Shown: positions 54,205-56,717 of the stretch, one piece after another
Numbering within the stretch: position 1 is the first letter of the stretch
How the letters are laid out: each line of letters opens with the position of its first letter
Source of the DNA: an uncultured Geobacteraceae bacterium
GTDB lineage: Bacteria; Desulfobacterota; Desulfuromonadia; Geobacterales; Pseudopelobacteraceae
Direction: 5' to 3'
Assembly: GCA_903901875.1 (NCBI GenBank)
Contig: CAIUSO010000065.1
Coordinates: forward strand, 1-64,000
Length of the DNA: 64,000 nt
Position numbers and translations under genes: made by a program
Notes under the pieces: model-generated
What the model was told of the DNA's origin: nothing
Seen by the model: the letters and a program-made list of their open reading frames with translations, nothing else
Databases searched by the model: none

Positions 54205-55350
54205 CTATTTTCTTACGGTCGCAAGGCATTGTACAACGGCATTGGAAAAGAAAGCAATATCTTCACTGGTCGTTGACCAGCCGGGACTGATTCGGACCGT
54301 ACCGGCCGGAAAGGTTCCCAGGGTCCGATGGGCCAGAGGAGCACAATGGAGTCCGGCCCGCACCGCAATATCGAATCCGTGGTCAAGTTCCGTTGCCAGC
54401 CAGGACGAATCGACTCCGGCAATGGTAAACGATAGCACCGAGCAGCGTGCAGCCGGGTCAGACGGGCCATGGATCGTTACCCCCGGAATACCCGCCAATG
54501 CCTCTGCTGCCTGCCCGATGAGTGCCTGCCCATGGTCATGGATAACGGACATACCGGTGCTTTTGATAAAATCGATGCCGGCATGGAGACCGGCAACGCC
54601 GGGGAGATTCTGGGTCCCGGCTTCAAAGCCGTCCGGCATCACCAACGGTTGCCCCTCTTCCGCCGAATGGGTACCGGTTCCCCCCTGCAGAATCGGGGTG
54701 AGGGAAACATGGGGAGCAACATATAAAAAACCGGTCCCCGCCGGCCCCAGCAGCCCCTTATGCCCCGGAACCGCCAACAGGTCAATGGCCATGCGGTCAA
54801 CATCAATCGGAAGATACCCGGCAGACTGGGCTCCGTCTACCAGAAAAAGTGTTCCCAATGATCGACTGAGTGCGGCCAGTTCGGCCAACGGCTGAATCGC
54901 ACCGCAAACATTTGAGACATGACTGACCGCAATCATGCGGGTGTGGGGTCGCACGGCCCGCTTAATTTCGGCCACCGGAACAATGCCGTCAGCCGTTGCC
55001 GACACGATTGTTACTTCTACCCCCGCTTCACGCAGCGCATACAGGGGACGCAGCAGGGAGTTATGTTCCATGGATGTTGTTATGACATGGTCACCGGCCA
55101 CCAGCGTGCCATGGAGGGCCAGATTGAGGGCCCCTGTGGCATTCTGGGTAAAGATGACCCGGGAAGAGTCTGAGATGGAAAACAGCTCAGCCACAGCCTC
55201 CCGTGCCTGAAAAAGGAGGCGCGCCCCCGCAAGAGAACGCCGGTGCCCACCCCTGCCGGGAGAACCGCCGATTTCACGCATAGTGTGCAGCACCCGCTCA
55301 TACACAGCTTCAGGTTTCGGATATGTGGTTGCAGCATTATCAAGATACAC
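54205..55350 (-). CDS. Cysteine desulfurase family aminotransferase (class V)
   Basis: A 381-residue PLP enzyme. It starts MYLDNAATTYPKPEAVYERV; the PLP Lys is in AVPGHKGLLGPAGTGF near 199, and RAGLHCAPLAHRTLG near 333-345 carries the persulfide Cys. This fits the EF2568-type group of cysteine desulfurase-like proteins (TIGR01977) rather than IscS or SufS proper. It may deliver sulfur for a selenium- or sulfur-containing cofactor; this is not proven. A 117-bp nested inverted-repeat element lies between it and the beta-helix gene. Confidence 0.87.
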   Translation of the reverse strand: MYLDNAATTYPKPEAVYERVLHTMREIGGSPGRGGHRRSLAGARLLFQAREAVAELFSISDSSRVIFTQNATGALNLALHGTLVAGDHVITTSMEHNSLLRPLYALREAGVEVTIVSATADGIVPVAEIKRAVRPHTRMIAVSHVSNVCGAIQPLAELAALSRSLGTLFLVDGAQSAGYLPIDVDRMAIDLLAVPGHKGLLGPAGTGFLYVAPHVSLTPILQGGTGTHSAEEGQPLVMPDGFEAGTQNLPGVAGLHAGIDFIKSTGMSVIHDHGQALIGQAAEALAGIPGVTIHGPSDPAARCSVLSFTIAGVDSSWLATELDHGFDIAVRAGLHCAPLAHRTLGTFPAGTVRISPGWSTTSEDIAFFSNAVVQCLATVRK

Positions 55351-55369
55351 GGCTGTTCCTTATTCTGTA

Positions 55370-55486
55370 TTGCAATCAAGATGACATTAAAACATTGGTG
55401 TACATATGACATACACCCCAATGTGGCGAACAGCAAAAGGCGGCGTATGGCCATACGCCCTACGAGTGGTGTCATCTTGATTGCAA
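55370..55486. repeat. Nested palindromic element with 17-bp perfect terminal inverted repeats
   Basis: TTGCAATCAAGATGACA (55370-55386) is exactly mirrored by TGTCATCTTGATTGCAA (55470-55486). Inside are ACATTGGTGTA...TACACCCCAATGT (about 55392-55424) and an 18-bp palindrome GGCGTATGGCCATACGCC (55442-55459). The three nested structures fill the 146-bp gap between two minus-strand genes. It could be a MITE, a REP/BIME-like repeat or a structured RNA element. It has no ORF. Confidence 0.75.
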
Positions 55487-55496
55487 CAGGGAATTA

Positions 55497-56573
55497 TTAC
55501 GGCACCAGAAGCGGTTTTTCTGTCAACCAGGGGGTACTCCTTACCGGGGCTACCGATTTATCCTGGGTACTGTCATATATCTTTTGACCGATCCGCAGCT
55601 GATCCGTCCCCCCCCACCAGTTCTGCCAGGCAGCAATTACTTCACGGCCGGCGTTATACAGATTGTAGCCACCATTGGAGACAAAACTGTTATTCAGGAT
55701 AAGTGCCTGACCATCTTCGGTACGAAGCGCATCGTGGACGTTGCCGGTAAAGAGACAGCGCTGGATCTTCATTCGTGAGCCGGAAAGATGGAGAGCGGTC
55801 TCCCGGTTGTTCTGGAAGCGGGTCATGGTTATCTGCCCTTCACCGCCATTGATCCGGGCAGCAAGCATATTACCGATAAATTCACCGCCGATAATTCGTA
55901 TGCGGCTCCCTTCGGACACCATTCCTGAATGCTGACTATTGAGCAACTTGAGACCATGCAGGGAGATACCGGACCGGGTGAATTCCCCCCCCCGTTGGCA
56001 TGATGCAATGGTCACATTCTTCCCGTCAAGTTCACTGTTAAAAGCAGATATCCCGAGATCGCAGTCGGTCATGGTATCATCGATCAAATGGAGAACGCTG
56101 TCATAGGCAAGAAGCGCAGTGGTCGCCTGGACAATGGCGGTTGCTTTCAAAGTCAAGGTTGAAAAGCGAAGATCAATGGCGGTTTCAGCAGACTCAATCC
56201 GGCACTGTTCAATGAGATTCTTCTTTTCCGAAGCAAGCAGAATCAGACCTCCCCAGGAACTGCGGGCAGAACCGTTCAGGGCACCCAGCATCGTAACGGG
56301 TCGTTCAGCAGTACCTACCACATTAATACGACCCTGGACGACAAGATTCGGAAGGGGTTGAAGTGCCGTCGGCACAAACCGGACCACGGTTCCGGGAACA
56401 ATACGCAGGGTTGCCTGGGGAGCAACCACAACCGATCCCTTAACCACCACGGTGCCACTCCAGGTAGTATCCTCGGTAAGCACCTGTCCGCCATAGCTGG
56501 AAACCGGCAGCTCTGCAGCCGCTGCACCGGTCAGAAAGCAGAAAAAAATTCCCGTAATGAAGAGTAGTTTCAC
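55497..56573 (-). CDS. Secreted right-handed beta-helix repeat protein
   Basis: About 358 residues from the GTG at 56571-56573, which follows AAGGAG by 6 bases; the longer start (MNDKELT) lacks that spacing. A signal peptide (KLLFITGIFFCFLTGAAAA) leads to a body of repeating short beta strands with Asn/Gly turns (TLRIVPGTVVRFVP, GTAERPVTMLGAL, NLIEQCRIESAETAIDLRF, IRIIGGEFIGNM), characteristic of parallel beta-helix (pectate-lyase-like) or copper-binding NosD-type folds. No catalytic residues are recognisable. A C9 run lies in the gene at 55986-55994. Confidence 0.8.
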   Translation of the reverse strand: MKLLFITGIFFCFLTGAAAAELPVSSYGGQVLTEDTTWSGTVVVKGSVVVAPQATLRIVPGTVVRFVPTALQPLPNLVVQGRINVVGTAERPVTMLGALNGSARSSWGGLILLASEKKNLIEQCRIESAETAIDLRFSTLTLKATAIVQATTALLAYDSVLHLIDDTMTDCDLGISAFNSELDGKNVTIASCQRGGEFTRSGISLHGLKLLNSQHSGMVSEGSRIRIIGGEFIGNMLAARINGGEGQITMTRFQNNRETALHLSGSRMKIQRCLFTGNVHDALRTEDGQALILNNSFVSNGGYNLYNAGREVIAAWQNWWGGTDQLRIGQKIYDSTQDKSVAPVRSTPWLTEKPLLVP

Positions 56574-56717
56574 CGTCAGCTCCTTGTCGTTCAATCTTTG
56601 ACAACTATCATGAATTCGTCTGACTGTAAATTTATTACTCCTGGATACCGGGGAAAATATCCCCGGTACAAGATCTCAAGTCCTTTCGAGAGGTTACCTT
56701 TTTTTTAAACTTATTTG

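Follow-up and report, generated by a model that had tools for sequence, protein, structure and literature searches.

The 64,000-nucleotide stretch of DNA analysed here (the window; positions 1 to 64,000 of contig CAIUSO010000065.1, from an uncultured Geobacteraceae bacterium) contains a set of nested inverted repeats between a beta-helix gene and a cysteine desulfurase gene, and the question raised by this locus is what kind of element these repeats form and how it came to lie there. The initial annotation offered three answers: a MITE, a REP-type repeat moved by a RAYT-like transposase, or a folded RNA in a shared transcript. According to the data described below, it is very probably a non-autonomous DNA transposon (MITE) that has the ends of a two-frame subgroup of the IS630 family and carries a REP-like passenger inside. 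It is an ordinary kind of element with a probable mover from an unusual IS630 subgroup. The features that we least expected are a 3-bp target duplication (TNA, not TA), insertion at stop codons above background (a post hoc result) and the occurrence of unrelated palindromes behind the same ends in at least two phyla.

Structure, boundaries and copies of the element

The perfect 17-bp ends noticed initially are present (55370-55386 and 55470-55486), and within them lie the second hairpin and the 18-bp palindrome (55442-55459); in the window such a palindrome is found once when up to 3 mismatches are allowed, against a mean of 0.01 in shuffled sequence. The extent of 117 bp originally given to the element had to be revised: the inverted repeats stood, the size did not. 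There is an outer extension of the inverted repeat (25 nt, 88%), and the copies in the own genome are homologous out to TTC...GAA; therefore, the true unit is 131 bp long, with TTA on each side (Table 1). It is short and non-coding, has 24-bp terminal inverted repeats and, as first proposed, fills the gap between the two genes, from the beta-helix stop codon (55497-55499, minus strand) to the GTG start of the desulfurase (55348-55350, minus strand), with no ORF inside, though two mechanically listed ORFs span it.

Table 1. Positions of the element, its parts and the flanking genes in the window
Feature	Position	Strand	Sequence or remark
Cysteine desulfurase gene	54205-55350	-	Downstream of the insertion; flank, not element
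Left target duplication	55360-55362		TTA; from the sequence and boundary statistics
Whole element (very probable MITE)	55363-55493		131 bp; boundaries common to the copies
Left terminal inverted repeat	55363-55386	+	TTCTGTATTGCAATCAAGATGACA; the 17 bp first annotated plus 7 outer bases
Inner hairpin	55392-55424		ACATTGGTGT...ACCCCAATGT; arms 55392-55401 and 55415-55424
REP-like palindrome with GTAG foot	55442-55463	-	GTAGGGCGTATGGCCATACGCC
Right terminal inverted repeat	55470-55493	-	TTCCCTGTTGCAATCAAGATGACA
Right target duplication	55494-55496		TTA; adjoins the beta-helix stop codon directly
Beta-helix gene	55497-56594	-	Upstream of the insertion; flank, not element

The own genome, a 4.30-Mb draft in 169 contigs from an apparent Geobacter relative, contains 31 dispersed full or partial copies (places of at least 50 bp, E <= 2.1e-6). 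The best full copies are 96-97% identical, and others go down to 70-85%, besides the partial ones. The genome searches that had been advised for the end pairs and for the palindrome core gave 60 sites with up to 3 mismatches for the 17-bp end (14 exact and 46 with 1-3 mismatches) vs. 3 for the reversed pattern, and 63 sites with up to 3 mismatches for the core. As DNA, the element matched in 4 of the 58 genomes searched at E <= 0.001, the own included: G004 has one copy (96%), and G001 and G044 have ends only. The same query gave no match in the plasmid and phage collections. By eye, half copies of the own genome with one end (L015, L018, L019, and L020) are interrupted near GTTC or GTTCGCC, the pattern that an exchange of the second payload half would leave.

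The empty site and the target duplication

The beta-helix protein was matched in all 39 genus genomes, the own included, and we compared the best 30 places (the own one and 29 relatives) in search of the empty sites that the initial annotation had suggested looking for. The distance from the beta-helix stop to the desulfurase start is 9-19 nt in 24 of the 29 same-genus loci and 31-102 nt in the other 5, vs. 146 nt in the own genome; in the nearest relative, G004, it is 9 nt. By eye, none of the 29 gaps contains the element, a comparison that involves other species of the genus and not strains. When the element and one duplication are subtracted, the own gap is reduced to 12 nt, and this remainder (TAAGGAACAGCC) follows the stop TAA, precedes the GTG and resembles the gaps of relatives such as L238, with TAAGGGACTTTCA. 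The uninterrupted junction would have been TAATAAGGAACAGCCGTG, and the insertion would have landed in the 12-nt gap of a tight gene pair, at a TTA beside the beta-helix stop codon. This stop codon is intact, as is by eye the probable ribosome-binding site of the next gene, and the element appears to have landed without breaking either neighbour.

These data also bear on the possibility that the element serves the beta-helix/desulfurase operon as a conserved structured RNA or an attenuator. Its fold is strong, with z values of -5.5 for the 117-base DNA and -7.2 for the minus-strand RNA (200 shuffles each, none of them as good); the transcript of the operon would gain a fold of about -50 kcal/mol from the insert, and inside the element a scan picked out, on the gene strand, two terminator-like hairpins whose T tails are weak, and no promoter-like site. 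However, besides being absent from the gaps of the 29 same-genus relatives, the element has copies that adjoin differing ORFs, none of 32 consensus pairs showed a compensatory change among the 16 copies compared, and the best Rfam match was far under its threshold. A conserved RNA was rejected because of these last two results, and we see no sign of selection maintaining the structure. As a conserved feature, the folded RNA in a shared transcript that had been proposed is therefore extremely unlikely; an attenuation of the desulfurase by the insert, which its predicted fold would permit, is possible.

Target duplications, the other check that had been proposed, were scored in elements chosen by their ends alone. 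The window element is flanked by TTA, and an exact 3-bp duplication is present at the TTC...GAA boundary in 11 of the 15 own elements with both ends (TAA 6, TTA 5) and in 19 of the 31 taken from other genomes (TAA 10, TTA 7, TCA 1, TGA 1), the 31 including two pieces of IS elements (L172 and L178) that were excluded from the stop-codon tests below; Nitrospirae right ends, accepted with up to 7 mismatches, were kept out of both counts. A symmetrical shift of the boundary by 1-4 bases leaves at most 3 exact duplications in the own elements and 2 in the others. Own elements that share an orientation alternate between TAA and TTA, and other genomes add TCA and TGA; therefore, the middle base is supplied by the target. 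These flanks are not accounted for by a plain TA duplication: TA lies directly at both sides of the boundary in none of the 15 own elements and in 2 of the 31 others. The copies, the 3-bp duplication and the short gaps in relatives so point to a MITE.

In some elements the duplication is also the stop codon of a neighbouring ORF. This holds for 8 of 29 elements with an exact duplication when ORFs of 100 codons are considered, or 7 of 29 with 150 codons. The corresponding background, taken from non-coding TNA sites within 400 bp, is 46/371 or 29/480, and the excess has a binomial P of 0.004 or 0.0003 in a test that was post hoc, made after the cases had been noticed, and that left aside the elements lying within a mechanical ORF, 7 or 6 in number (n = 22 or 23). 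With a looser background, P was smaller. The duplication of the window element is beside the stop codon, not in it. Selection against damage, rather than targeting, may account for the excess, and such insertions suggest how these elements can sit in dense operons with the genes unbroken.

A probable IS630-family partner

In named genomes, two overlapping frames lie behind the same end in a Smithella contig (L076) and in a Desulfuromonadales contig. The first frame of L076 matches HTH_33 and the second DDE_3. When L076 and L130 were scanned with NF033545 (the NCBIfam IS630 model, cut-off 100 bits), their second frames scored above the cut-off (102.6 and 117.5, respectively) and their first frames matched below it. 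Six transposase-bearing elements of 1100-1118 bp with the same ends as the MITE were found in related bacteria; the sharing of ends was recorded for L076, L130, L151, L171, and L178, with 20 of 20 specified positions matching in L076 and L151. In all six, a run of A7-A9 is located at the same place (around nt 527-530, where the frames meet), and in five of them the second frame is at -1 to the first, which would be consistent with a -1 frameshift at this run. In L178 (A7) the second frame is at +1 and in L172 there is a further break in the first frame; therefore, both may be damaged. L171, L172, and L178 look damaged or of a different frame relation, and in L171 and L176 the second-frame relative needs the read-through of a stop codon.

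Exact TNA duplications flank three of the six transposase-bearing elements (L151, TAA; L171, TTA; L178, TAA) and are absent from the other three. Furthermore, among four plasmid-borne transposase relatives (best identity in the search 48%), whose boundaries were set by eye, three show TGA/TGA, TTA/TTA, and TCA/TCA and the fourth TAA/TTA, and the TNA duplication therefore seems to be characteristic of this IS630 subgroup. For the IS630 family, a TA duplication and a single gene have been reported (PMC2170065), and among the open-licence papers searched we recognised no description of a 3-bp TNA duplication for IS630.

Second-frame relatives are encoded in 7 of the 39 genus genomes, and the own genome has none; it has no first-frame relative at E <= 0.001 either, and its single DDE_3 protein (L170) is different and does not have such ends. 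A resident partner transposase was thus rejected after three kinds of search, since no matching transposase was found in the own genome, a negative that refers to a draft of 169 contigs in which repeats may be missing. By eye, L170 (G000 C161) adjoins an ORF resembling a group II intron reverse transcriptase.

IS5-like elements have a 3-bp TNA target. If the MITE belonged to another transposase family, for example an IS5-like one, and its ends resembled those of IS630 elements by chance, this would fit both the difference from the TA reported for IS630 and the lack of a partner in the own genome. Against this, TNA is duplicated in three of the six IS630-type elements with these ends and in three of the four plasmid-borne relatives (boundaries by eye), and it would be necessary to assume that a match at 20 of 20 positions in L076 and L151 is fortuitous, so that we consider this option very unlikely.

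In the mechanism that we favour, the 24-bp ends of the MITE are those of an IS630 subgroup with a transposase in two overlapping frames meeting at A7-A9. The transposase would come in trans from such an element (none was detected in this assembly); it would bind these ends and mobilise the 121-135-bp unit, which would be joined to a TNA trinucleotide with a 3-bp duplication as the outcome. The inside is a passenger: it consists of GTAG-footed REP-like hairpins, arranged as a doublet or triplet, which are also found outside these ends. The MITE proposed in the initial annotation is thus borne out by many copies, terminal inverted repeats, a 3-bp duplication, short gaps and relatives that bear a transposase between the same ends. 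The element behaves as an IS630-driven MITE would, except that its target duplication departs from what has been reported for the family.

Passengers behind the same ends and comparison with known systems

On the minus strand the palindrome starts with GTAG, like REPs, and the REP shape (GTAG foot, palindrome, inverted doublets, repetition) is restricted to the inner part of the element. A 121-bp subfamily (L025, L029, and the slightly different L030) contains a plain inverted doublet, GTAGGGGCGAACGGCTGTTCGCCC - AATC - GGGGCGTATGCAATACGCGCCTAC; copies of the main type, among them the one in the window, have a further palindrome inside the doublet, and the palindrome of the window copy lacks one G and one C found in most other main-type copies. 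Among the 50 listed of the 63 palindrome sites, 23 are within 110 bp of an end and 27 are not, and thus the passenger exists also alone. By eye, GTAG doublets and clusters without MITE ends are found in L181 (G000 C36, 31-246 and 3811-3893), where the clusters are in part tandemly duplicated, and in L182, L183, L188, and L191. The exact GTAG palindrome is also present in five stretches of IMG/VR (L301-L305), in four viral contigs.

The 63 GTAG-footed sites, the 27 of 50 listed without an end within 110 bp (some of them inverted doublets, by eye) and a 226-aa Y1 protein encoded in the own genome would all be in line with the movement of a REP or REPIN in single-stranded form by a RAYT (a Y1 tyrosine transposase), the outer ends being incidental. 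However, the flanks of five Y1-transposase hits (up to 1.5 kb, less at contig ends) contain no exact GTAGGGGCG and no GTAG-footed hairpin, so that these flanks show no association of the repeat with a RAYT gene; near these hits there are two one-mismatch matches to GTAGGGGCG, with the palindrome absent. Moreover, the 24-bp ends and the exact 3-bp duplication would be left unexplained, and the same ends surround other palindromes. The RAYT as mover of the whole unit was rejected on the lack of association and the exact duplication, and this explanation is very improbable for the unit as a whole. From the REP-type repeat initially suggested, the REP shape of the inner palindrome is retained; the RAYT link is not, and the outer unit is not a REP.

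The ends assigned here to an IS630-driven MITE are found in other genomes with different payloads. The end plus TTC is present in 53 of the 277 genomes of the class, the own included, with a reversed control of 0 in every row; loci are given for 30 places only. In named genomes, 98 matches of the 17-mer in 97 stretches were found where about 60 are expected by chance (estimated from collection size with equal base use); we took as real the 35 with TTC seven bases upstream and set aside 63. TNA precedes 32 of these 35 ends. By record title, 17 of the 35 are deltaproteobacterial, 13 from Nitrospirae (8 from one MAG), 3 from Chloroflexi, 1 from Planctomycetes and 1 from Bacteroidota. The Planctomycetes case has no exact duplication, and the Bacteroidota one shares its flanks with the Smithella contig L076 and so is perhaps misbinned; two ends with an exact duplication are seen in deltaproteobacterial and Nitrospirae records. 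These elements were found through their end, so its presence follows from the search and the result lies solely in the variety of the insides: sorted by eye, they are GTAG doublets, AAACCTCCGAGGTTT, CCACCCCTAACCCCTCC, GTCATTCCGG, and a few more.

Of the five genomes in which the second payload type (AAACCTCCGAGGTTT) was found, four contain 5 to 17 forward sites and the other (G190) contains 1, and the third (CCACCCCTAACCCCTCC) has 16 to 58 sites on both strands in 3 of 5 genomes and 1 in each of the other two (G228 and G235), these being the single or nearly single cases. Both types are absent from G000 and G004, and the reversed control gave 1 match, in G246. Both ends and an exact duplication surround 7 of 32 printed rows of payload sites of these two types (5/12 and 2/20, repeated elements dropped), the remaining rows having no pair or a pair without duplication; so the ends are not the sole setting of these palindromes. 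In Nitrospirae, L069, L101, L108, L118, and L134 have this left end together with a right end that diverges (near TTCCATTAAGTGTTTAAGTTGTCA) and carry the GTCATTCCGG payload, with exact TTA or TAA duplications, and the other Nitrospirae matches are unpaired. A further payload of about 70 bp, GAGGCGGC..., is located behind the same ends in L112, L226, and L228.

A tentative and rather doubtful extension is that the ends of one TNA-target IS630 subgroup carry unrelated palindromes (GTAG doublets, CCTCGGAGG, CCCCTCC, and GTCATTCCGG) in at least two phyla and thereby have spread some of the orphan palindromes that lie between the genes of environmental genomes, the TNA target allowing the element to enter and restore TAA and TGA stops nearly silently. 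With the element described here, a class of intergenic palindromes gains a probable mover, and classical transposon ends are seen to carry REP-like repeats between them; the data also point to an IS630 subgroup that departs in its target duplication from the reported TA. The passenger arrangement deserves a wider count.

Among known elements, RUP duplicates TA. Like the element described here, RUP of Streptococcus pneumoniae (about 107 bp) has IS630-like ends (IS630-Spn1), and its movement in trans has been proposed; it differs in its hosts (pneumococcus, S. mitis and rarely other streptococci) and in that the available part of its description mentions no REP passenger (PMC3049150). The Chunjie MITE of Geobacter uraniireducens comes from a Geobacter relative, lies in an operon and has other copies in intergenic regions, but it measures 178-235 bp vs. 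121-135 bp here (PMC10969869). QMITE2 of Coxiella burnetii is a MITE containing a GTAG REP, and its short copies resemble bare REPs, although its duplications are 7-11 bp long and of varying sequence, and IS630 is not mentioned in the accessible portion of the report (PMC5896051). GTAG REPs, BIMEs and REPINs share the GTAG foot, the palindrome and the doublets (PMC3733652), whereas here 23 of 50 listed palindromes are by transposon ends and no RAYT association was seen. Finally, ISY100 and the IS630 family have the same transposase family by NCBIfam and Pfam, with one gene and TA reported there (PMC2170065) and two frames and a 3-bp TNA here.
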